Virus record (IMG/VR): IMGVR_UViG_3300036770_004723
Span: 1 to 64,000 of that record
DNA length: 64,000 nucleotides
Origin: a virus
Strand: one strand, 5' to 3'
The notes under the pieces are model-generated. The model did no database searches and was not told the origin of the DNA. It was given only the letters and a program-made list of their open reading frames with translations. Both the position numbers and the translations under genes were made by a program. Below are positions 22,000 through 34,420 of the stretch, in pieces (within the stretch, counting starts at the first letter, position 1; each line of letters begins with the position of its first letter).

Positions 22000-24366
22000 A
22001 TGATTCCAGATCGTTTATTATTGACTCCAGAAGGTAGATCGGCTTTATTAAGTGCAGAAGCAGGCGGCATAAAAATCCGCCCTGCTTCTTTTCGCATAGG
22101 TAACTATTCAGGTGTAGCTACACCTGATACACCTACGGATATTCTAGGTGATGTACTTTTTGAAGACACTTTATTTTTATGTGAAGTAATTTCAGGTAAT
22201 ACCGCGAGATTTACAGTGGAAATACCTAAAACCGATAGTACTATCAGTATAACAGAAGCAACAGTTAAACTGGAAAGTGGTGAGACACTAGGTTACGTCC
22301 GCACTAGTGTTCCATACGATAAAGCAGCCAATAGAAAAATTCGTTTAAGTTTTATGTTACATCTAGATGAAAATATTGCACATGTAATTGATGTTACTTT
22401 AAGTACGTTCGGTTCTGTACCTAGTGTAATTTCTTTAGATGAATTACCTTCACCTGTAAACAGCATTGCCAATACTTTAGTAGTATTAGACTTGCAAAAG
22501 AATGGCCTTGATGATTATAGCCCTGAATTAGTTTATAGATTTGGTGCAGGAGGTTCTGTTTGGGGCTTCAGCGGTTGTACAAGATTATTCAATGGCAATG
22601 TGAATTTCACAGATAGCGCAAATTTCGAGCAGGATTCTGTTATCGAAGATTACGAACTAGAAACAGACGATGAAGTTATTTGCTTTATAAGTAGTGGAAA
22701 AGGTGCAGGATCCACAAGAAGATTTAAAGTAATAGCAAATAAATTTATGGCAGTTAATGCGGGATTTGTAGATGCAGATAACAGTTCTGTTCTACATATA
22801 TGGAGGCAGATTGGAGGCATTAGTGGATCGGCAGGTTTAGGTTTACCTGACAGAAATGGTGTAGGTCCCGATTGGGTACTTGTAGCAGGAGAATCTAATA
22901 AATTGCCTTATTGGGCACCTGCTTCAAACGGTGCCTCTAAAACTCGTGGTAATATTTATAACCCGCCAGGTAAGTTAAAAGTACTTCCTATTACATTAAT
23001 GCCTACTGCAAGCCAAAAATCTTTTGTTTTATATAATGAAGATCCTTTGTCTTCCAGTGACGAAGAAAGTTGGATTCACAGATACTCATATCGAAAAAAT
23101 CCTTCTTATTCTATGATTGCCTTAGGTAATGTTAATCAGTTACATACATCGTACAATCTTTATAATAATATGCTGGAATTTCCAGAAGATGTCCCAATTG
23201 AAGCTATTATTGATGCTAGACTTTTTGAGCTTGATTCACATACAGGCACCAGAATGTTTATGAAATCAAATACTCATGTAGGTGACAGTTTAAAACGTGA
23301 ATTTGATTTACCTGCATTACCTGAAGATTCATCTAATGTCTTTGTGTATTTGGAAAGAACATTATTGAGTCCCGCAACGTATACAATCGATCTGTCTAAG
23401 AATAAGCTTGTTTTTTATGAAGCACCTAAAATCGGCCTTAAATTTGAAATCAATGTAATGGCCTATGAAGATATTGTAGGTTTTGCTACATTGATGCACG
23501 TACATCAGGTAACGGTTACTGATAGCAGACGTGTTTTTGTTCTGCCTTTTTCCGTAGGTACAAAAGAAAACATTTTAATTAACTTGAATGGTTTGCATTT
23601 ATTCAAAGATGAATATGTATTGATCGGAAATAAAATTGTTACCAATGTCGATATTCAGGTAAATGCAACAGGACCTTTGGATTTAGAATTTATTATATTC
23701 GAAAACGTAAGATCAGAAGGCACGGCAGATACTGCTTTACGTAATATTGTAGTGGATGCAGTATTGAATAAAGACGGATTGGTTTTAATTAGAAATGGCG
23801 CGGATAATATCCCAATACCTTTGCCAAAAATAAATATTACTTCTAGTGACGGTATTAAAATAGAAGGGAATTTTCCAAACTTCCATTTAACACTACCCGC
23901 AGTTAAAAGTAAAAACGATCAATTTAGTGCTATATCTAAAACAGAAAAAGCGTTGAACTCTAATGAATTAAATGCAACTTTTAAAGTAGAGTTCCGAAAT
24001 GACATCATGATAAAAATTGATGCTTATTTCGAAGCACAGCTAGGTCCAGGATTTAAATCAAGTTCAGGTCTAGAGGAAATGCAATTCGGTGTCGGATTTA
24101 AAACTTTAAAAAGTAGCCAGCCTGAGTTAGGTAGAAATATCAAAGGTACTGGTATTTCAGGTTTTTCTGTAAGCACTGAAGCAGCTACAGGCGTAGTAGC
24201 TTATAGCAATGGCAGTGTAGGTGATGCTATTATACTAAAAGCAGAAAATAATCCACAAGGATATATTGAAATAGTGGCTACATTAAAGTTGGTAAATACT
24301 AAAGTAGGTGATTACGGATCCAACGCTCGTATAACACTAAGCGGTATAGTAATACCTGTAGGTTAA
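22000..24366 (+). CDS. Tail-collar-fibre-like structural protein, 788 aa
   Basis: The N terminus (IPDRLLLTPEGRSALLSAEAGGIKIRPASFRIGNYSG) resembles the N-terminal attachment domain of phage tail fibres (L.T..G...L..A...G....F....IG). The middle is beta-rich, with a repeated hairpin pattern DSSNVFVYLERTLLSPATYTID. The C-terminal 150 residues look like a distal beta-sandwich. AGGAAATTCTTAAA precedes ATG 22000. The 73-nt gap before it is the longest in the operon so far and contains TACACTAATTTAT, also seen before 15092, so an internal promoter is possible. It is probably the fibre that anchors later fibre proteins to the baseplate. Confidence 0.7.
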   Translation: MIPDRLLLTPEGRSALLSAEAGGIKIRPASFRIGNYSGVATPDTPTDILGDVLFEDTLFLCEVISGNTARFTVEIPKTDSTISITEATVKLESGETLGYVRTSVPYDKAANRKIRLSFMLHLDENIAHVIDVTLSTFGSVPSVISLDELPSPVNSIANTLVVLDLQKNGLDDYSPELVYRFGAGGSVWGFSGCTRLFNGNVNFTDSANFEQDSVIEDYELETDDEVICFISSGKGAGSTRRFKVIANKFMAVNAGFVDADNSSVLHIWRQIGGISGSAGLGLPDRNGVGPDWVLVAGESNKLPYWAPASNGASKTRGNIYNPPGKLKVLPITLMPTASQKSFVLYNEDPLSSSDEESWIHRYSYRKNPSYSMIALGNVNQLHTSYNLYNNMLEFPEDVPIEAIIDARLFELDSHTGTRMFMKSNTHVGDSLKREFDLPALPEDSSNVFVYLERTLLSPATYTIDLSKNKLVFYEAPKIGLKFEINVMAYEDIVGFATLMHVHQVTVTDSRRVFVLPFSVGTKENILINLNGLHLFKDEYVLIGNKIVTNVDIQVNATGPLDLEFIIFENVRSEGTADTALRNIVVDAVLNKDGLVLIRNGADNIPIPLPKINITSSDGIKIEGNFPNFHLTLPAVKSKNDQFSAISKTEKALNSNELNATFKVEFRNDIMIKIDAYFEAQLGPGFKSSSGLEEMQFGVGFKTLKSSQPELGRNIKGTGISGFSVSTEAATGVVAYSNGSVGDAIILKAENNPQGYIEIVATLKLVNTKVGDYGSNARITLSGIVIPVG

Positions 24367-24377
24367 AGGAATATTCT

Positions 24378-25883
24378 ATGAATTTTTCCACACGATTGGA
24401 ATTAATATCTAATCAAACAGATCCTGATCAAAGTCTAGGTAAACTAGACAGTTTAGGATCTGTTAAATTTGACACAGAACAAGCTGCAAATCCTTTAAAT
24501 ATATCTTTTGCTTATGATAAAAAAGCAGGAATACTTTCTTTAGTTTTATCTCCAGACAACATAATACAGGCTACAGGTTTTATCACGGAAAGTATGGTAG
24601 GTACGGGATTACGAGGCGGGAAAGGTAAAAGGGGACGTGATGGAAAAAATGGAAGATTAGGTTATGATGGAAAAACTGGGAAAACGGGATGTGTAGGGTT
24701 ACCAGGTAAAAAAGGTAAAAAAGGTCTAAGTGGAAAAGATGGCGAAGATGGACCTATTGGGCCAATAGGTTATGCAGGTCCAATAGGCGAAGATGGCGAA
24801 GATGGCGAAGATGGCGATAAAGGTATTATAGGACATGAAGGTTCAAGAGGTCTAACAGGTTCTAGCTGTTGGCAAGGTGAAGAAGGAATTCAAGGACCTA
24901 AACCTTTTGAATTTGTACATTTTTCACCTACTCCACCAAATGACTTAACTGTTTATCTTTGGGCACAGCCTGTAGAAATTTCTGTAGATCCGACAACACC
25001 TGCTATACCGCAAACTCCAATGTCAGGATCTATAGAAAGTAAAAGTATGAATGTGCCGACTGTAGGATCTGGTTGGTATCAAGGAACATTATACTTTAAT
25101 CTAAGTAGTTTTCAAGGAGGCACTGGACCATTTATATATAAATGGTCAGGTGACTACTCAGGAAAGTTAGAATTAGTTGTTGTAGACACAGGCGAAGCCA
25201 GTCAAAACCTAAATTTAAGATGTAGACTTTATTTAAATGAGACTACTGTTAAAAGATTGGAAGGCAAAGTGTATCTTGAAATAACAGATTCATCTAACGG
25301 ACAAAAGTTAAACTTAGAGGCCAATTACTCTTTTATCGTACAAGCTACTTTAATTGTTGGTGGGGGCGGTGGTGGAGGCGGTGGTGGTTGTATACTATAC
25401 GGCCAAAAAGTTTTAACAGTCACCAAGAAAAATGTTTTAATAGAAAATGTTTTATTAGGTGACAGTTTATTAGGGTGTGATATTAAAGGCGTTCCAGATT
25501 CTTCTGGAGGCAGCATGAAATATTTTGAGTGGTCTACAACAAATCTTATTGAACATGAAACGGATGTGTATGTAAGAAAAGCTGATCACTCAACACATAA
25601 TGTTTACTATGAAATAAACGGTGATCTGTGTTTAACAGGCGAAGAAGCACTTTTAGTGTGCCGTAATGAACATTGGCGCTTTTTGCGGGTAGTTAATATA
25701 AAAATAGGTGATCTGCTCAAGCATATAGATGGAACAAAAAAGATTACTGAAATAAAGAAAATCGAAAAAGATGTTAAAGTAGTCAGTTTAGATGTTGAAA
25801 GCATTGATATGTTTTATGTGAACGGTTACGTTATACATAATAAAGAAGCTTTAGATGCAGAATACAAACAAATAGAATATTAA
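24378..25883 (+). CDS. Collagen-like fibre protein with C-terminal (degenerate) Hint domain, 501 aa
   Basis: Domain order: N-terminal domain shared with three paralogues (1-75, ending ATGFITES), Gly-X-Y collagen triplets (about 77-173) with Cys105 in the tenth triplet, a beta domain (about 178-325), ten glycines (328-337), and a Hint (intein/hedgehog-type) domain from Cys338 to Asn488. The Hint part keeps the first Cys (CILYGQ) and the His-Asn end (VIHN). The block B TxxH motif has changed to TGEE, and Lys489 takes the place of the +1 Cys/Ser/Thr, so self-cleavage or splicing may be lost. Thirteen residues follow HN. It is probably a trimeric stalk in the tail. AAGGAATATTCT precedes the ATG. 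Confidence 0.85.
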   Translation: MNFSTRLELISNQTDPDQSLGKLDSLGSVKFDTEQAANPLNISFAYDKKAGILSLVLSPDNIIQATGFITESMVGTGLRGGKGKRGRDGKNGRLGYDGKTGKTGCVGLPGKKGKKGLSGKDGEDGPIGPIGYAGPIGEDGEDGEDGDKGIIGHEGSRGLTGSSCWQGEEGIQGPKPFEFVHFSPTPPNDLTVYLWAQPVEISVDPTTPAIPQTPMSGSIESKSMNVPTVGSGWYQGTLYFNLSSFQGGTGPFIYKWSGDYSGKLELVVVDTGEASQNLNLRCRLYLNETTVKRLEGKVYLEITDSSNGQKLNLEANYSFIVQATLIVGGGGGGGGGGCILYGQKVLTVTKKNVLIENVLLGDSLLGCDIKGVPDSSGGSMKYFEWSTTNLIEHETDVYVRKADHSTHNVYYEINGDLCLTGEEALLVCRNEHWRFLRVVNIKIGDLLKHIDGTKKITEIKKIEKDVKVVSLDVESIDMFYVNGYVIHNKEALDAEYKQIEY

Positions 25884-25892
25884 GAAGGTAAT

Positions 25893-26543
25893 ATGTCAAA
25901 ATTAACTACAGTTCCTGTAGGTTTAATTACTGCACCTTCAGGGCAAGATGGTGCAAAACTTCAGGTAAAAAATAAAGCAATTGTACCGGTAACAACACAA
26001 GATCAAAATGTCACACCGATAACAAAAATGGAATTCGATGCAAGCGTAGGTGTTTTGACAATTGTTTTTTTAAACAATTCTTCTATGCCTGTTAGTGGTT
26101 TCCCTACTTTATCTGATATACCTCAAGGACAACAAGGACCTGAAGGAGAACCAGGAATTGATGGTCGTGATGGTCGTGATGGTCGTGATGGAAAAGATGG
26201 TGAAATTGGTTGTGTTGGCCCAGTAGGTGAAACTGGTGATCAAGGTGAAGATGGTAGAGATGGATTAGAGGGACCTATTGGCCCAATAGGTATTCAAGGA
26301 CCTCAAGGAAAAAGAGGTGAACGTGGGAAAAAAGGAGAGCAAGGAGATCAAGGACCACCCGGTAAACAAGGATTACCTGGTATAGAGGGACCACGAGGAA
26401 AAATTGGCAAACAAGGTCCACCAGGAAGAATAAATATTTTAGTAAGTGAAACAGATCCTGGTCCAAGTTTAGGTATCGGCGGTATTTGGGTAAATCCTTT
26501 AATAGGTCAAGTCGCAGATGATACCGCACAATTTTTTTCATAA
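25893..26543 (+). CDS. Collagen-like fibre protein, 216 aa
   Basis: N-terminal paralogous domain (1-78, ending VSGFPTLSD), Gly-X-Y triplets at about 79-179 with Cys107 in the tenth triplet (GEIGCVGP), then a short C-terminal cap SETDPGPSLGIGGIWVNP related to the cap of the next gene (IQSEQPGAVGAGAIWIRP). Collagen-like phage proteins form trimeric stalks. The Cys could form interchain disulphides or anchor a partner. Codons GGTCGTGAT are repeated three times in a row at 26164-26190. AAGGTAAT precedes the ATG; 9 nt separate it from the previous gene. Confidence 0.85.
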   Translation: MSKLTTVPVGLITAPSGQDGAKLQVKNKAIVPVTTQDQNVTPITKMEFDASVGVLTIVFLNNSSMPVSGFPTLSDIPQGQQGPEGEPGIDGRDGRDGRDGKDGEIGCVGPVGETGDQGEDGRDGLEGPIGPIGIQGPQGKRGERGKKGEQGDQGPPGKQGLPGIEGPRGKIGKQGPPGRINILVSETDPGPSLGIGGIWVNPLIGQVADDTAQFFS

Positions 26544-26552
26544 GGTAATTTT

Positions 26553-27044
26553 ATGAGTATAACACAAATTCCTTTAGATTTAATAAGTCCTGGTGCAGTT
26601 TCTGGAGTATTAAGTGCTGCCGGTAATTCAGTTCATGTCACACCAAGCTCAAACGATGTAAATGAATTAAGAGGATTTTATGATCCTTCACAAGGAATAT
26701 TAACTTTAAGTATTCCAAACATTGGAAAAATAAATATCGCAGGTTTTCCAACAAAATCGGATGTTGGTGTAGGCAGACAAGGACCTAGCGGTCGAGATGG
26801 ATCTGCTGGCATTGACGGGTTGATAGGTGAAGCAGGCACAAAAGGTTCTCTTGGTTGTCGTGGCCCTGAAGGACCTCAAGGAAGACAAGGTGAAAGAGGA
26901 CCAAGAGGTTTAGTAGGTCCTCAAGGACAACAAGGCATTCAAGGCATTCAAGGTAATGACGGACGTGATGGAAAAGTTTTAATATTCATACAAAGTGAAC
27001 AACCTGGTGCAGTTGGCGCGGGCGCAATTTGGATAAGACCTTAG
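26553..27044 (+). CDS. Collagen-like fibre protein, 163 aa
   Basis: Third of four paralogues: N-terminal domain with MSITQIPLDLISP and IAGFPTKSD, collagen triplets at about 74-140 with Cys102 again in the tenth triplet (GSLGCRGP), and the C-terminal cap ending GAGAIWIRP. The shared N terminus suggests that all four attach to the same site or co-assemble. AAGGTAATTTT precedes the ATG. A 45-nt gap with no gene follows. Confidence 0.85.
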   Translation: MSITQIPLDLISPGAVSGVLSAAGNSVHVTPSSNDVNELRGFYDPSQGILTLSIPNIGKINIAGFPTKSDVGVGRQGPSGRDGSAGIDGLIGEAGTKGSLGCRGPEGPQGRQGERGPRGLVGPQGQQGIQGIQGNDGRDGKVLIFIQSEQPGAVGAGAIWIRP

Positions 27045-27089
27045 TAGGTTCGGTTCTTTTTGGATAAACTTTATTATTAGGAAATAAAA

Positions 27090-27566
27090 ATGCAGATCAA
27101 AAAATTAAATTTAGATACTAAATCTTTTTTATCAAGTTCGATGGATACAGAAACAGCCTTACTTTCAGCCAATAGCGCTGTAGAGTATTACAAAACAGAA
27201 ATGCGTAAACTTTTTCCTATCTTTATGGTACAAGCTACTGTAAGAAAGGTTTTAGGTGGTGACAGCATGTATCTCGTTTTTGCGAATGTCGGTAGTAAAG
27301 ACGAAGCACCTAATAATATAATGGATAATGTTAGTGGCTACTTCACTATTGTTATTGATGTTGCTCGTGGTGAAAAATATAAACCAATTGAAAAATTTGA
27401 AGCAGAAATGGTACGAGGTGGTGTATCCAAACGTGTTCAATCTTTTGGTGTAAAAAGCTTTAGAAAGATCAGCGGTGCCGATCCTATTGAAGTAACAAAA
27501 AAAGTTGTCAAGTGGTATGCTACTAATAAAGAAGCTTTAGAAAGTTTGCCTGTTAGTGTTTATTAA
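27090..27566 (+). CDS. Hypothetical protein, 158 aa
   Basis: Not recognised. It is probably a small alpha/beta protein: a helical start (TETALLSANSAVEYYKTEMRK), then strands (FMVQATVRKVLGG, YFTIVIDVARG), then a basic stretch (VSKRVQSFGVKSFRK). It is located between two fibre genes, so it could be a minor structural protein or a fibre assembly chaperone, but no similarity supports either. AGGAAATAAAA precedes ATG 27090. Confidence 0.7.
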   Translation: MQIKKLNLDTKSFLSSSMDTETALLSANSAVEYYKTEMRKLFPIFMVQATVRKVLGGDSMYLVFANVGSKDEAPNNIMDNVSGYFTIVIDVARGEKYKPIEKFEAEMVRGGVSKRVQSFGVKSFRKISGADPIEVTKKVVKWYATNKEALESLPVSVY

Positions 27567-27584
27567 TAATTGGGGATTAGGATT

Positions 27585-30500
27585 ATGGCAAGGCTACGTT
27601 TTAGATCGCCTTATAATAACAAATGGTTAGATGCTTGCAATCATCAAATATTTATCAGGTCCCCTGATAATAGAACTTGGTATCAATTAGATCCAAAACG
27701 TGCTAGTGTCCGTGATGGTGGAAATTTAAATTGGTTAGAACTTGATTGTAATCCTGATCCACTTTTTGATGAACCTTGTGCATTTAAAGATATAGCAAGC
27801 GTTAACTGTCCTAGTGGTACTCCTACAATTGAGTTAGGTTCAGGTGACGGTACTGGAAGTAATGGTCCTCAATTCAATTTAGTAAATGGTTATCCGGCAG
27901 GTTACGACTTGCCGGATGCTGGTTCTTCAGGATTTTTCTTAGATACTTTAATATCAAGTGCAAAAGGTTTAGCTATCAAAAGACCTGCTTTAAATTTTGC
28001 ACTAGAGTCCTATGATCCGTCAGGTACAACAAGTAATTTAGGTCGTGGTACATACGATAACCCTAATTATTTGTGGGCAACTACATTTAGTAGTGGCTGT
28101 GCTATTACCGAAACAATTTACGATCTTGGATTAGTAGCTGGTTGGTATGAAATTCCATTTGCTTGTTATCACCCTGAAGGTATTAGCGTAGACGTTTATT
28201 ATTTAGGTAGACGCATTGCAACAACATGTGGACGCATTAAAGATCGTTACAAGATTGAATTCTTTTTTGATCCAAGTGCAGGATCTGGTGAAAGTCGGAT
28301 AATGATCAGAGTACGTGGTGAAGAATCAACACGTTGGTCATTAATGGTTATAGGGCCAAAACAAAATTTAAGTGTATACAATTTAGATTGGACAGATTTA
28401 ACTCAAGCGCTTGCCATACGCCAAGATGAATATAATGGTACTCCTATATTTCCAGCACCTTGTCACGCCACAGTATTTCCAAGAACATATAAAACTAATG
28501 ATGGAAAATGGTTTTATGAATTTCATCACTATGTAGGTGAGAACGCAGATCCTACTGAAATCGCTAGAATGGTTTTAGACTATAGTAGTTGGATGAATCA
28601 TGATAAATTTGAAATATATCATGGAGGTCTAAGAATTGGAAGTACAATGGATCCAACTACTTTATTAGGTATGATTGAATTTTTGTGGGAACCTAATCGT
28701 TTTGTTATACCTGTACCAGATTTAATGATAAGGGTTAGTGCAGAAAATAGAGAATACGGCCAAGATATAATGAGCTGGTATTATACATTATTCTGTCAAA
28801 ATACTGCTGGATATAGAGCGAATCCTTGGCCTTGTGAAACGCCTATTGCAGGTTTAAGTAGCATGGGACATAGTAGCACCGAAGATAACTATAACATGGA
28901 TAACGGAGTACAAAAAGGTGTTGTTAGTGTAAAAGTTATTCCTTACGGAGACTTCAACTACTCTGTTAGTATATTCGATATAGATCAGAATTTAATTTCT
29001 TATACTGAAGCATCTAAAACAGCATTTATTCAGTTTTTTATTTTTAAAGATCAACATGGGAATTCTAGAAATAGAATAACAGTAAGGATCGATGCACCGC
29101 TAGGATCAAGCTGGACTTACTTTGTAGGTTGTCCTGTTGAATTAATTGATATTGAAATAGATGATAAAGTTGTTCCTGTGTGCGATGGAGATGTTGAGAT
29201 ATCAATTCAAAATTTAAGTATTCAAAAAAATACAACAGGCAAATTTACATTGAATACTAATATTCCTGTCCCATCTGATCTAACTATTAACGTAGCTACT
29301 TCTGACGGTACAGCGTTGAGTGCATTAGGTGCAGCAAACTACGGAGGATTACCTAATATCTACGGTATTTTCAATGATGTAGACTCTATATCTGATGGTG
29401 CTACGGTAGCAACTAAATCTGGTAGATTTTTAATACAGAATTTTCCAACTGCTTCAGTTATTTTTGATAACGGTTGGGGAAATTTAGCAAATCCAGAGTA
29501 CAAAGGTAAGACACTTGGTAGCAACACTAGATTTGCTGAAAATATTCTAACATCTACATTTGCAAATTTAAGTCCAGATGCAAGAGTTTTAATAAACTCT
29601 TGGAAGCATCGCTTAGGTGATTTAAGTGGTAAACGTTGGTTAATATTAACCGACACCTCAGACAGCTTAAGTGATTTTTCAGTAATATGTTCAAACTTTA
29701 TTCAGAGCATGATAAACATTTATGGATTAACTGTACAAGTAGTCAAAGACGATTACAGTAACTTACCTGCTCTGTATGATATCCTAACAATTGCAAATAG
29801 CAAAAAATGGGCAGATGTAGGCAAATATAGTTCAGGAGGCGTACATTATATTAATAGAGTTCTACAAGGATATAAGAGTCCTGTAGCTATAGGCATAGCC
29901 ACACAAATAAAACAAAATAAAGTTTTTCACGCCTATTTTAAAAATAGCGCAAATCGTTTATCTGAAAATATTTTTATACGTGACGTAATGAATTGTTTTA
30001 CCGGCGTTAAGTTGCAATGGAATGAACAAGTATCTAAATCACTGTCGGTTCCAAGTGTAAGTTTAAATGTACACACTCAACAATTTCCTGATACACCACT
30101 AACAAATGGTATAACTGAACAAAAATTAGATACTGATTTTTCAGTTATTGATATGCGTTATGATACTGTTGTAAATTTAGATCCTGATTATGAAGCTAGA
30201 TCAGGAACTGTTGTTATTCCAGCAGGTCAAAGTTCAGGAACATTTGATGTACGTACTTTAGATCCAGCAGCCAATCCAGTCGGTAAATTCTTTTTCCTAG
30301 ATCTTTTGACATCTTCTTATGGTGATATAGTTGAAGAACAAGGTAAAGCAACAATAATTAATTCTACAGCACCTAATCCTGTAACAGACGTACACTTCAC
30401 AAAAACATCTTATGCTGCAATGACATGGACAAGCGACGCAGGATGCAGTGTGGTATTTGGTGTAGATTCTGCTAATCTAGATCTTGGTGACATGATTGGT

Positions 30501-30896
30501 TCATTGGCTGCTGGAGAATTTGATTCAAATCCTTCAGGTAATTTTAATAACGCCCGTTATTATAAAGTAGGCAGTTATAAAAATGATTCTACTCTCACTT
30601 ATGAGTGCAAATGGGAATACGTGGTTAAGGTAAAGGATTACGCAGCTAATTTAGTTTTTTTACCTACATCAATCACCAGTTTTCAACCTATTTCCTCGAA
30701 TAAACGTTTTATAGTTTCTATGAATGTGCCAGCAGGTACAGAAGTAGATCAAACGGCAATAGTGGAAGCAAACTTAATTATTAAAGATAGTTTAGGTAGA
30801 ATATCGAAAAGTAATACAGTGACAATTGTTTTAACTTACGTAGTTCCTGGTTGGGGAGGTGGCGGTGATACTGGACCTAGCGGAATTGTTTTCTAG
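27585..30896 (+). CDS. Large modular tail-fibre protein with split Calx-beta domain, 1103 aa
   Basis: I chose ATG 27585, with GGGGATTAGGA upstream, not the TTG at 27570. The N terminus contains FIRSPDNRTWYQLDP. Three copies of a beta module follow at about 170-265, 294-407 and 437-517. Each holds a VYY.G / EIYH.G / SIFD hairpin, then IRV....W.Y, and the second and third end in a Cys (LFCQN, VGCP). Next is the first half of a Calx-beta domain (about 541-577, ending TSDGTA). An inserted alpha/beta domain of about 285 residues comes next, and then the second half (about 864-930, SGTVVIPAGQSSGTF). The end is glycine-rich (GWGGGGDTG). Probably a receptor-facing fibre. Confidence 0.8.
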   Translation: MARLRFRSPYNNKWLDACNHQIFIRSPDNRTWYQLDPKRASVRDGGNLNWLELDCNPDPLFDEPCAFKDIASVNCPSGTPTIELGSGDGTGSNGPQFNLVNGYPAGYDLPDAGSSGFFLDTLISSAKGLAIKRPALNFALESYDPSGTTSNLGRGTYDNPNYLWATTFSSGCAITETIYDLGLVAGWYEIPFACYHPEGISVDVYYLGRRIATTCGRIKDRYKIEFFFDPSAGSGESRIMIRVRGEESTRWSLMVIGPKQNLSVYNLDWTDLTQALAIRQDEYNGTPIFPAPCHATVFPRTYKTNDGKWFYEFHHYVGENADPTEIARMVLDYSSWMNHDKFEIYHGGLRIGSTMDPTTLLGMIEFLWEPNRFVIPVPDLMIRVSAENREYGQDIMSWYYTLFCQNTAGYRANPWPCETPIAGLSSMGHSSTEDNYNMDNGVQKGVVSVKVIPYGDFNYSVSIFDIDQNLISYTEASKTAFIQFFIFKDQHGNSRNRITVRIDAPLGSSWTYFVGCPVELIDIEIDDKVVPVCDGDVEISIQNLSIQKNTTGKFTLNTNIPVPSDLTINVATSDGTALSALGAANYGGLPNIYGIFNDVDSISDGATVATKSGRFLIQNFPTASVIFDNGWGNLANPEYKGKTLGSNTRFAENILTSTFANLSPDARVLINSWKHRLGDLSGKRWLILTDTSDSLSDFSVICSNFIQSMINIYGLTVQVVKDDYSNLPALYDILTIANSKKWADVGKYSSGGVHYINRVLQGYKSPVAIGIATQIKQNKVFHAYFKNSANRLSENIFIRDVMNCFTGVKLQWNEQVSKSLSVPSVSLNVHTQQFPDTPLTNGITEQKLDTDFSVIDMRYDTVVNLDPDYEARSGTVVIPAGQSSGTFDVRTLDPAANPVGKFFFLDLLTSSYGDIVEEQGKATIINSTAPNPVTDVHFTKTSYAAMTWTSDAGCSVVFGVDSANLDLGDMIGSLAAGEFDSNPSGNFNNARYYKVGSYKNDSTLTYECKWEYVVKVKDYAANLVFLPTSITSFQPISSNKRFIVSMNVPAGTEVDQTAIVEANLIIKDSLGRISKSNTVTIVLTYVVPGWGGGGDTGPSGIVF

Positions 30897-31377
30897 GTCA
30901 GGACATACAGTTCAATCTTTATTAATTGAATCATCTAATCTAAATAACCCTCCGATTATAATCGGAGGGTTTGCTAGACATCTACATGATCTAAAAGGTT
31001 TTAATGATATTGATTGGCTTTGCTATGACCAGACTAGTTTTGTGCAAATGTGCAATTTAATGAATAAACATTTTGAGTTAATAGCTATTTCCATATGCAA
31101 AGACTACTTTTATTATAAAGAAGTTGTTGGCGCGAACAAAATAATTCATCAGGTTCATACTTTACCTAATGTTGGTTGTCACCATGATTTTTTAAACTAT
31201 GCTGATTTTACTGTTAGCTGCATAGGCTTTAATTATACGACTATAATTAAACATCGTTTATTTGATTATGATCTTAAACAAAGTATTTTAAGAAAAAACG
31301 AAAGTTATGTTAAACCTTTTGATAGATCTAGGATCAAGAAATATACGGATCGTGGATTTAAAATGAATTTAATTTAG
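30865..31377 (+). CDS. Nucleotidyltransferase-fold protein, 170 aa
   Basis: Contains the signature of the nucleotidyltransferase superfamily: IIIGGFARHLHDLKGFNDIDW, that is GG, 13 residues, then D-x-D, as in poly(A) polymerase and related enzymes. Later, HHDFLNYADFTVSCIGFNY could supply the third acidic residue. It is short, so possibly only the catalytic domain. What it modifies is unknown. The gene starts inside the end of the 1103-residue fibre gene: GGAGG at 30855 is 5 nt before GTG 30865, and another GTG lies at 30859. A perfect 26-bp palindrome sits in the coding region just before the GG motif. An enzyme among fibre genes is unusual. Confidence 0.6.
   Translation: MILDLAELFSRSGHTVQSLLIESSNLNNPPIIIGGFARHLHDLKGFNDIDWLCYDQTSFVQMCNLMNKHFELIAISICKDYFYYKEVVGANKIIHQVHTLPNVGCHHDFLNYADFTVSCIGFNYTTIIKHRLFDYDLKQSILRKNESYVKPFDRSRIKKYTDRGFKMNLI
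30946..30971. repeat. Perfect 26-nt palindrome inside the nucleotidyltransferase gene
   Basis: The 13 nt AACCCTCCGATTA are followed directly by their exact reverse complement, giving a GC-rich stem with essentially no loop. It starts 50 nt after the stop of the 1103-residue fibre gene. In RNA it would form a very strong hairpin, but there is no following T-tract. It could attenuate transcription, limit RNA decay, or bind a dimeric protein as DNA. Confidence 0.9.
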
Positions 31378-31387
31378 GATAAGAAAA

Positions 31388-34300
31388 ATGGCTGGAACAC
31401 CTTTTGTATCAGTTTATGAAAATTTAAATGCAGATCCAGCAGACACAGTTGCGAATTATACTTGGAAATACGATCACGAGTATATTGTTTATGTAGTAGA
31501 AAGACATAAACGTACTGAATTAGGTATGAGTTATACACTAACACTAAGATCTGCTATAGGTTCATCTGATAGAGGATTTATCGCCAAACACATCGACTGC
31601 TATGTTATATTTGATCAGCAGGATATGAAAATAAAAACACAGACTAGACAAGGTGATTGGTGTCCGATAGTAAAAATACTAGAAAGACCTGTAACATTTG
31701 GTGTAACTGATCATACTTCTGAGAATTGGGAAGAGTGGTGGACAGGTACGGCAGCTCAAGTATCAAAACCTTGGGAAGATGACTACGAATATTTTGTACT
31801 TTCAAGTCAAGGTGCTGCCCCTGGAAATATAGGTTGGTCAAGTTTTGTTACTTCTTTACATTTTTTTATACCTGAAGAATTTGAACAAGTCCCTATAAAT
31901 GGTGAGTGCTTTATGCGCCCCACTGTGGATGGAGGTATTAAGTTTTGGCGTCCACATTGGGGTGGAAATAAAAGTAGTAGATACGTAGCTACTTGGGGCA
32001 ACGTATCTATTATTTCACATATATATAGAAGAAAAATTCGTTTTGATACAGCACCATCAAAACAATTTAATAGTTGGTTTAAAAAGCAAATATTCGGTTT
32101 TCCTTATGGCGTATATGCAGGTAATAAATGGCGCGATGCGAAGCCATGTAATTGGGTAGAAGATAAAGAAGTTATTATGATGACCTTGGACTGTTCTGGT
32201 CCTGACGAATTAGCTTCCTCTTATTTTTTTACCGATAGTGCTATGTTTACTTTGCCTAGTAGTGTAATGAATTATAGTGAAGGGGGCATGGTATGCGAGT
32301 CGGGAGTTAGTCATTTTACCATGTTAAATACTCCCAATTTTGCAAGACACGGTGTTAAAACTGTGCATACCTACGGAGATGATGGTGCAACTGTTTTTGT
32401 AATGTATGAAAAACTGGATGTTTTAGCTGACGATCCTGTTATTATTGTTCCTCCTGAACCAGATCCTAAGCCGCCGTCATGTTCAGACTGTGTAAGGGCA
32501 GGATCTATTTGGGAACAAACTGCAAATATTGAAGTAAAATTTTTAAAGCCTGTTGATTGGCAATTACGTAATTACCGTTACGTGTGGTCCGGTGATATAG
32601 GTAATGGAAATGTTGAGTTACTTGGAACCGAAGACAAAGGGCGTATTGCCAAAATTCGTTTTGCAAAACAAATGGCAGTTGAAGACTCTTCAACCTTTTT
32701 ACCTGTTAATATTGTAGTAGAAGTATTTGACGAAGATTATAGTGCAATAGGTATATCTGATAAAGATAGCGCAGTAATATCTTTTGAATTGCCTTGTGTA
32801 ATATTAGCGAACGAACCTAATATATCTATACAGGATTTAAGTATTATAGAAGGTGATGTCGATAATAAAATACTGTTAAAAATTTCTGCCAGTGAGCCAG
32901 CTGAAGGTGGAGATATAACAGTTGATTGGACTACAGTTGAAGACACTGCAACGAATAATGTAGATTATTACCAAGCTAGCGGGACCGCTACTATAGTCGA
33001 AGGATCAAGTGAAGCTATTGTGGAAATAATGTTGATAGGTGATGATATTTTAGAAAGCAATGAAACTTTTATTGTACGTATTTCAAATGCAAGTCGTGGA
33101 AATATTGTTAAAGATACAGGTATCATAACTATACTAGATGATGATGCAAGTCCTTGCGGTGTAGATACGCCAGCAGGCGGTGCAGGTGTAACAGAAACAA
33201 CACATTTCTTAGGCTCTAATCCTGGACGTGTTATAGTTACATTTGAAATGTACGGTGTACAAGATAAAATGGAAATTTTTTATGAAGGAAATTTAGTTGC
33301 GGCCACAAGCCCAGGTCCTGATGGTAAAAATGTACCAGGAGGTAATATTTTAAATCCTGGATTCGTTAGCGATCAAGGTAATCTTTCTTTTGACTATTTT
33401 GGTCCACCTAGAGCAACTTCATTTATGATCAGAATGACAGGTCCTGATGGAACTGAATGGAATTATAAATTTAATTGCCCTGTTCCTTTCGATGGTGGAT
33501 GGGATGGAAAATTAGATGCAGTTCCTACATTAATATTCGATCCTTTAGGTAATGGTACTGAGTTTGACGCAGGTTTGTTTATTATGCCTGATGGATCTAT
33601 CCAAGCAACTTCTGCTTCAGGACCTTTAGGTTATTGGAGTGGGGCAATTGCAAATAGCTCTAATTCCGAAGTAAAATTTGAAGTTATTTCTGGTACGGCA
33701 AGTGTACATAATAATGCTCCGGATTTTTCACCTTTAGCATCTTCCAGACAAATATGGTTACGTCTTCCATTAAATTCTCCTGTTACTGAAGTAACTATTA
33801 GAGTTTATTTGCGTGAAGCCGGTTCTACAACAGCAATAGTAACTAAAGACGTGGTGTTAAAAGTAGGATCTGGAGGAACTGGAGGTGGAGGCAATGGCTG
33901 TTTTATTTACGGCACATTGATCGACATGGCTGACGGTACTAAAAAGAAAATTGAAGATATTGTTGTAGGTGATAAATTAAAAACTTTATTAATACCTGAT
34001 ATGCCGGACGCAAGTGCAGAAGATCCTACCAGCTATTTCGATTGGTCTGAAATAGCTATCGCACCTACTTATGCGGAATGTTATGTAAAAGATGTGGATC
34101 ATAATAGCTTTAGTTATTATTACAAAATATTTGCAGAAAATATGTTTGAACCTTTATGTATAACAGTAGAACATCCGGTATTAGTTAAATTTCAAGAACA
34201 AGGTATGGAATGGCATTGGGATACACCAGCTAGATTAAGAATAGGTGATTATCTTTATAATAATAAGATGGAAGCAGTTAAAATTTTGACGATAGAAATA

Positions 34301-34420
34301 GTGGTTGAAAAAATAAATACCGCTAATTTAAACGTAGAAAATTTAGATACATATTTTGCTAACGGTATATTTGTACATAATAGTGAAAATACAGAAACAC
34401 CTAAAGAACCTATAGGGTAA
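31388..34420 (+). CDS. Tail-fibre protein with Calx-beta and intact Hint domain, 1010 aa
   Basis: Order: N-terminal region of about 370 residues (unrecognised), Cys-rich linker (SCSDCVRAG), beta domain, a complete Calx-beta domain (about 477-588, ISIQDLSIIEGD to ILDDDAS), and a beta module with EIFYEGNLV...WNYKFNCP related to those in the 1103-residue fibre. Another beta domain, a glycine-rich linker and a Hint domain from Cys838 to Asn998 follow. The Hint domain has block A CFIYGTLIDMADG, block B TVEH (TxxH) and the FVHN end, followed by Ser999 and 11 more residues. All residues for autocatalytic cleavage or splicing are present; there is no room for a homing endonuclease. AGGATAAGAAAA precedes the ATG. 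Confidence 0.85.
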   Translation: MAGTPFVSVYENLNADPADTVANYTWKYDHEYIVYVVERHKRTELGMSYTLTLRSAIGSSDRGFIAKHIDCYVIFDQQDMKIKTQTRQGDWCPIVKILERPVTFGVTDHTSENWEEWWTGTAAQVSKPWEDDYEYFVLSSQGAAPGNIGWSSFVTSLHFFIPEEFEQVPINGECFMRPTVDGGIKFWRPHWGGNKSSRYVATWGNVSIISHIYRRKIRFDTAPSKQFNSWFKKQIFGFPYGVYAGNKWRDAKPCNWVEDKEVIMMTLDCSGPDELASSYFFTDSAMFTLPSSVMNYSEGGMVCESGVSHFTMLNTPNFARHGVKTVHTYGDDGATVFVMYEKLDVLADDPVIIVPPEPDPKPPSCSDCVRAGSIWEQTANIEVKFLKPVDWQLRNYRYVWSGDIGNGNVELLGTEDKGRIAKIRFAKQMAVEDSSTFLPVNIVVEVFDEDYSAIGISDKDSAVISFELPCVILANEPNISIQDLSIIEGDVDNKILLKISASEPAEGGDITVDWTTVEDTATNNVDYYQASGTATIVEGSSEAIVEIMLIGDDILESNETFIVRISNASRGNIVKDTGIITILDDDASPCGVDTPAGGAGVTETTHFLGSNPGRVIVTFEMYGVQDKMEIFYEGNLVAATSPGPDGKNVPGGNILNPGFVSDQGNLSFDYFGPPRATSFMIRMTGPDGTEWNYKFNCPVPFDGGWDGKLDAVPTLIFDPLGNGTEFDAGLFIMPDGSIQATSASGPLGYWSGAIANSSNSEVKFEVISGTASVHNNAPDFSPLASSRQIWLRLPLNSPVTEVTIRVYLREAGSTTAIVTKDVVLKVGSGGTGGGGNGCFIYGTLIDMADGTKKKIEDIVVGDKLKTLLIPDMPDASAEDPTSYFDWSEIAIAPTYAECYVKDVDHNSFSYYYKIFAENMFEPLCITVEHPVLVKFQEQGMEWHWDTPARLRIGDYLYNNKMEAVKILTIEIVVEKINTANLNVENLDTYFANGIFVHNSENTETPKEPIG

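Follow-up and report, generated by a model that had tools for sequence, protein, structure and literature searches.

Two fibre proteins encoded in the window, the 64,000-nucleotide stretch of DNA analysed here (positions 1 to 64,000 of IMG/VR record IMGVR_UViG_3300036770_004723, a virus record of 286,584 bases), end in complete Hint domains, with the HINT (hedgehog/intein) superfamily fold over the whole domain. I consider it probable, at roughly 0.6, that the Hint is a self-releasing autoprocessing module at the C-terminus of a tail fibre, similar to the A-type BILs. According to this reading, Cys1 would attack the preceding glycine to give a thioester, resolved mainly by hydrolysis, which would release the Hint and leave a fibre ending in the glycine of the linker; cyclisation of the asparagine at the HN motif could shed the short C-terminal tail too. 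The Hint would then be a temporary C-terminal cap or folding aid. The copy on the larger protein should be active. In the collagen-like protein a Glu takes the place of the block-B His, as in two divergent relatives, so its Hint would most likely be retained as a structural end domain. Fold, motifs, purifying selection, presence or absence at the junction and copying between fibre genes are computed results; cleavage and its timing, hydrolysis in preference to transfer, the cap role and the retention of the altered copy are inferred from them.

The fibre region holds the genes 17283, 22000, 24378, 25893, 26553, 27090, 27570, 30859, 31388 and, further on, 34652, in this order; the names coll1 (24378), fibA (27570) and fibB (31388) were coined in the present analysis. 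coll1 (24378..25883, + strand) encodes a collagen-like tail-fibre protein of 501 amino acids with a C-terminal Hint (Pfam Collagen, E=1.3e-14), and matches PHROG 38766, a virion structural protein, over residues 19–491, spanning both the collagen part and the Hint (E=5.4e-61). Its ten-glycine linker (residues 328–337; 25359..25388, +) leads to Cys338 at nt 25389, and the altered Hint runs from there to Asn488 (25389..25841, +), with Cys1 and HN (residues 487–488) kept and the block-B His replaced by Glu in the motif TGEE (residues 420–423). A 13-residue C-terminal tail starting at Lys489 follows (25842..25880, +). fibB (31388..34420, +) encodes a large fibre-like protein of 1010 amino acids with a Calx-beta domain (residues 497–586, E=2.4e-10) and a C-terminal Hint, and matches PHROG 38766 through the Hint part only (residues 814–1000, E=1.4e-9). 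Here the linker is GSGGTGGGGNG (residues 827–837; 33866..33898, +), the intact Hint extends from Cys838 at nt 33899 to Asn998 (33899..34381, +), with TVEH at residues 926–929 and HN at 997–998, and the 12-residue C-terminal tail begins with Ser999 (34382..34417, +), whose codon ends at nt 34384. Translation thus bears out the preliminary description, which had placed the Hint starts at these two cysteines behind glycine-rich linkers, had credited fibB with an intact catalytic set (Cys838, TVEH, HN, Ser999), and had noted in coll1 the lost block-B His and the Lys489 after HN.

The third large gene, fibA (27570..30896, +; PHROG 26008, E=9.3e-117), encodes a fibre-like protein that has no Hint and ends in the glycine-rich stretch GWGGGGDTGPSGIVF; in phage NCTB and in the related records L068 and L102, fibA runs on into Gly-Cys-Hint. 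Between fibA and fibB, in the position of the NCTB-type fibA Hint, lies a small ORF (30859-31377) whose start overlaps the fibA end; it has a weak nucleotidyltransferase match (PHROG 1614, E=0.011). Two more collagen-like fibre genes lacking a Hint (25893-26543 and 26553-27044, both +; Collagen match) stand between coll1 and fibA, and another collagen-like gene, 34652, lies downstream of fibB. The tail protein 17283 belongs to PHROG 14098, and the conserved neighbour of coll1 (22000..24366, +; PHROG 21488, E=2.6e-166) was used for finding relatives. The small gene before fibA (27090-27566) has two tandem counterparts in the related contig L101 (9052-9516 and 9513-9995), which are 25% and 50% identical to it.

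General domain libraries recognise these Hints poorly. For fibB, the Pfam matches are weak and both under the cut-off (Hom_end_hint, E=0.0025; PT-HINT, PF07591, E=0.064, with 13.9 bits, or 17.5 bits in the genome search, set against a cut-off of 27.7), and NCBIfam intein_Cterm matches fibB only (16.7 bits, cut-off 15.6); no Pfam Hint match was obtained for coll1 at E<=1. A family profile built without the window identifies both domains (coll1, E=1.8e-45; fibB, E=1.4e-43), also when the nearest relatives L098, L099 and L101 are left out (1.9e-40 and 4.2e-37). It finds no third Hint among the 90 window ORFs of at least 80 amino acids, and the two are the only family-model matches in the whole 286,584-base record. 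The Pfam PT-HINT search marks two intein-like places elsewhere in that record (G000), at ~87150-87350 (-) (L001) and ~81118-81261 (-) (L002); these are intein-like insertions in two long ORFs, and the L002 ORF apparently holds two of them. Both ORFs resemble topoisomerase or gyrase subunits.

A profile of 11 family members, both window copies included, matches the BIL domain 2lwy over nearly its whole length (E=1.4e-11). AlphaFold2 models of the two Hints, built from 25 related sequences, have a mean pLDDT of 89.5 (fibB) and 90.0 (coll1). The structure nearest to the models is BIL2, 6y75 (fibB, Z 20.7, rmsd 1.7, 140 residues aligned; coll1, Z 20.3, 1.5, 136), and they also superpose on 2lwy (fibB, Z 19.4, rmsd 1.5, 134 residues; coll1, Z 18.8, 1.5, 130) and, among other structures of similar Z, on the hedgehog domain 1at0 (fibB, Z 18.4, rmsd 2.0, 137; coll1, Z 17.4, 1.9, 130). 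The Hint identity claimed in the preliminary description therefore stands on profile and models alike.

The likeness to hedgehog (Z 18.4 and 17.4), which becomes linked to cholesterol in this way, fits the preliminary description's idea of a covalent attachment: an amine or thiol on a second fibre, on some other virion protein or on the cell surface would take over the Gly-Cys thioester. This chemistry is open to any thioester-making Hint, the glycine-rich linkers would leave the end exposed, and the sequence alone is compatible with hydrolysis and with transfer to an acceptor, the two not being told apart at this level. Ligation of this kind seems quite improbable, as no acceptor or accessory domain was found and a short tail alone comes after the Hint.

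Residue conservation was assessed in two sets. The first consists of 20 distinct Erwinia-type coll1 proteins, left from 62 ORFs (filtered by score and length) after removing identical sequences. Gly-1, Cys1, the Thr and His of block B and both residues of HN are each present in 20/20 of these, and the linker residues −2 to −7 beside the invariant Gly-1 are variable (1.15–2.06 bits), which suggests specific conservation of the bond that would be cut. Median dN/dS between pairs is 0.097 in the Hint and 0.09 in the beta region that precedes it, compared with 0.13 in the N-terminal plus collagen part and 0.215 in the tail of 10 residues. These values are rough, since each region has its own pair set (45 to 150 pairs); they point to strong purifying selection on the Hint.

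The second set is a table of 25 domains from the window and its relatives. It omits the near-identical Erwinia-type copies, which belong to the first set, as well as L003 (a duplicate of the window), L100 (same Hint as L099), L097 (same coll1 as L007), L129, a marine group and the partial hits L060-L066. All 25 domains have HN, and 22 have Cys1. Among these 22, Gly precedes Cys1 in 19, while two near-identical copies have Asp there and one has Gln; the block-B Thr is present in every one, and the block-B His in 19/22, with Glu in the other three. The residue after HN is of eight kinds (K, S, L, A, T, V, M and R). The window copies thus share with A-type BILs both Cys1 and the C-terminal HN; the block-B TxxH is present in fibB (TVEH) and absent in coll1 (TGEE). 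The BIL trait of having no conserved +1 nucleophile holds over the 25 domains, yet in the Erwinia-type coll1 proteins this residue is Thr in 19 of 20 (Val in the other). The window copies do not conform to class 1 inteins, being C-terminal with a tail of 12–13 residues, and with Lys (24378) or Ser (31388) at +1.

The preliminary description had also envisaged splicing through Ser999. A-type BIL splicing would excise the Hint and join the fibre glycine to the short tail, in fibB to SENTETPKEPIG. The Thr of the 19/20 Erwinia-type copies, which counts against the self-release reading in that it keeps splicing possible there, and the Ser of 31388 are in line with it. Elsewhere, however, position +1 is occupied by K, L, A, V, M or R, so that the nucleophile is not conserved, and evolution is faster in the tail than in the Hint (0.215 against 0.097). 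Passages of two papers on BILs describe mainly cleaved products where the +1 nucleophile is lacking (PMC7664689), and A-type BILs as having HN and being able to splice, with cleavage dominant, through a freed amine (PMC4031507). Considering this behaviour together with the variable +1 residue, cleavage is the best reading and would be the conserved reaction; splicing would be minor, and as the main function of the domain it is very improbable.

Comparison with Hint-less orthologues suggests that the Hint is a removable C-terminal module in the related jumbo phages. The coll1 protein of Dickeya phage JA29, which is 50.5% identical to that of Y3 and 48.8% to that of S35 over the shared part, ends in ...RITARNPK; at the same place in the alignment, Y3 continues as ...VVARNPVNTSTTG-C and S35 as ...VVARNPTNTATSG-C. 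As the JA29 end matches just before the Gly-Cys junction, the Hint-less protein nearly equals the predicted product of self-removal. The Hint-less coll1 proteins of L092 and L111 stop a few residues earlier than JA29. Such orthologues indicate that the fibre can exist without the Hint.

That the Hints all remain in place as stable, beta-rich end domains or trimer-adapting domains, their catalysis unused, is a possible though unlikely alternative. Purifying selection is expected of a retained structural Hint as well, and 3 of the 22 domains with Cys1 lack Gly-1; both points speak against self-release. Moreover, the altered copy persists as a complete domain, as does a separate 153-residue Hint without Cys1 and without the Thr and His of block B, implying that a non-cleaving Hint can be useful in this phage group. 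Catalysis left unused fits poorly with the intact copies, in which Gly-1 and the full catalytic set are invariant beside a variable linker, and with Hint-less orthologues that stop at about the junction. Neither virion proteomics nor biochemistry on these fibre proteins was found in the literature searched.

The altered coll1 copy had been called degenerate in the preliminary description. The coll1 Hints of the window, L101 and L099 are 35.0–40.6% identical to one another, and in all three a Glu replaces the His of block B, with Gly-Cys, Thr and HN preserved. The reading as a decaying pseudo-domain was rejected because three divergent phages share the His-to-Glu change with the other residues kept; with three distinct sequences, the case is suggestive. 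The block-B His is the most conserved intein residue according to part of a 2014 review (PMC4031507), which counts two inteins without it, one a degraded pseudogene and the other using a Lys elsewhere. These comparisons suggest that N-terminal cleavage in the coll1 Hint would be slow or absent, yet that the domain is not useless. It is conceivable, if distinctly unlikely, that the phage group has two grades of Hint on its fibres, a self-removing finisher and a retained Hint with a new role at the tip. The retained grade would be either the fused Hint with the His-to-Glu change or the free-standing one that lacks Cys1, and its role might be, for instance, to hold a long-lived thioester or to bind the glycine tails left by its active sisters.

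Among 50,697 phage records, a tblastn search with the fibB Hint matched 74 at E<=0.01, and in 51 the match covered 80% or more of the query. Ordinary inteins, such as one in a DNA helicase, account for part of the 74. The coll1 Hint matched 46 records, namely 43 Erwinia phages, 2 Dickeya phages and phage NCTB. The fibre locus is kept in jumbo phages of a group named Lupandier in a passage of the PaBG paper (PMC7412058). As in the window, L101 combines an altered coll1 Hint and an intact fibB Hint with a Hint-less fibA. L098, a contig that starts inside fibA, has a fibB of the same kind as these two, and L129, from the same sample, has a coll1 of the same kind (TLEE), near-identical to that of L101. 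L099 has the altered coll1 Hint and no further family match in its 261-kb record; the short contig L100 carries an identical Hint. In NCTB, L068 and L102, an intact coll1 Hint is directly followed by the separate 153-residue Hint and then by fibA with an intact Hint, and fibB has none. The separate genes (L004:9744-10205, L068:13939-14400 and L102:8376-8837) overlap the coll1 end by one base; their product retains HN in all three phages, and the NCTB and L102 versions are 39% identical.

The Erwinia-type phages, Dickeya AD1, Yersinia fHe-Yen9-02 and Afa-NA1 have an intact coll1 Hint, one Hint each in the stretches fetched. Alignment shows coll1 without a Hint in Dickeya JA29, L092 and L111; L103, L116 and L117 have coll1 proteins of similarly short lengths (324, 314 and 314 aa; lengths only). 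The L111 and L117 records (130 and 230 kb) have no family match. The preliminary description had raised the question of whether an intact and an altered copy co-occur in relatives. The pair does recur in L101, but an obligatory pairing is ruled out by L099, whose single family match in 261 kb is an altered copy; nor does the survey of relatives favour it, the Erwinia-type phages having one intact copy each and others none at the locus. The coll1 of the Alcaligenes phage Afa-NA1 (L007, 78 kb) and of the Salmonella phage Sen-NF (L097, 109 kb) is apparently the same, and as the named hosts are unrelated, the naming or assembly may be questionable.

Beyond this group, Gly-rich-Cys-Hint ends occur near the C-terminus of proteins in the phage contigs L057 and L058; these proteins are not established as fibres. 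Single-protein scans of viral contigs with the coll1 C-terminus, 22000 and 17283 found no relative, the scan with the fibB Hint returned mostly Hints of another kind, and no PADLOC family matched. L013-L035 contain another type of phage Hint, with a Met-Cys start between Pro-rich stretches and an HNK end, followed by 12–367 residues where complete; they often lie on short, marine-looking contigs.

In a tree of the Hint domains, the coll1 and fibA copies of the NCTB type form a sister pair (SH-aLRT 96, UFBoot 99), and for this reason forcing all coll1 Hints to be monophyletic is rejected (AU p=0.0013 and 0.0025 in two tests). The two results together indicate that the Hint module was copied between fibre genes in the NCTB-type lineage. 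For the origin of the window's copies, several groupings are compatible with the data. The TxxE Hints group with support of 55/91, and their grouping with fibB (AU 0.181 and 0.234), with Erwinia-type coll1 (AU 0.373) or, as a common origin, with the separate Hints (AU p=0.32 and 0.397) is not rejected; the same holds for coll1 and fibA Hints as one group (AU 0.233), with a low RELL support of 0.0495.

A patchy distribution, and the copying from one fibre gene to another (coll1, fibA) in NCTB-type phages, are also what would be expected of selfish mini-inteins, mobile parasites useless to the phage, and ordinary inteins exist elsewhere in the same genome. Nevertheless, this reading is extremely unlikely for domains of ~140–170 amino acids, too small for a homing endonuclease, that occupy a C-terminal position in this phage group, evolve under strong purifying selection and do not keep the splicing nucleophile.

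Hints in phages have been recorded before: GenBank records of this group carry the label "intein domain", and some phage proteins in BFVD are named Hint, while unnamed BFVD entries of 506, 1304 and 153 aa have the lengths of the three NCTB Hint proteins. No paper on Hint domains of phage fibres was found in the literature searched, most subscription papers lying outside it. I regard the domain as real, conserved and of a known kind in a little-studied setting; what is unusual is the conserved altered form and the movement between fibre genes. If the Hints cleave, they would provide a protease-free, self-timed finishing of fibre ends after folding. A conserved His-to-Glu form would be a natural experiment on the tolerance of Hint chemistry to change, and the presence, absence and transfer of the module among fibre genes of one operon make its role testable by comparing relatives.

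Self-removing C-terminal chaperones of phage fibres and procollagen C-propeptides are removable C-terminal aids; the Hints resemble them in position and proposed role, with unrelated folds and chemistry. With the A-type BIL CthBIL4 (2lwy) and Tetrahymena BIL2 (6y75), they share the HINT fold, Cys1, TxxH, HN and the lack of a conserved +1 nucleophile. Unlike BILs, they are found at the C-terminus of collagen-like or Calx-beta fibre proteins, behind glycine-rich linkers, and one phage lineage has Glu for the block-B His. The hedgehog autoprocessing domain (1at0) has the fold and the C-terminal position in common with them, and probably the release of the N-terminal partner at Cys1; the phage Hints differ in having no sterol-recognition region (their tails being 13 and 12 residues), in keeping HN, and in having no known acceptor. 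The PT-HINT of polymorphic toxins is likewise an autoprocessing Hint in surface or exported proteins. It sits just before a C-terminal toxin domain, as described in a section of PMC3482391, whereas the phage fibre Hint is followed by a short tail only and scores below the Pfam PT-HINT cut-off. Close counterparts, with an orthologous locus and architecture, are the tail proteins labelled "intein domain" in NCTB and Erwinia phages (PHROG 38766). In the NCTB type, coll1 and fibA carry intact Hints and a separate Hint lacks Cys1; in the window the altered Hint is that of coll1 and the intact one that of fibB.
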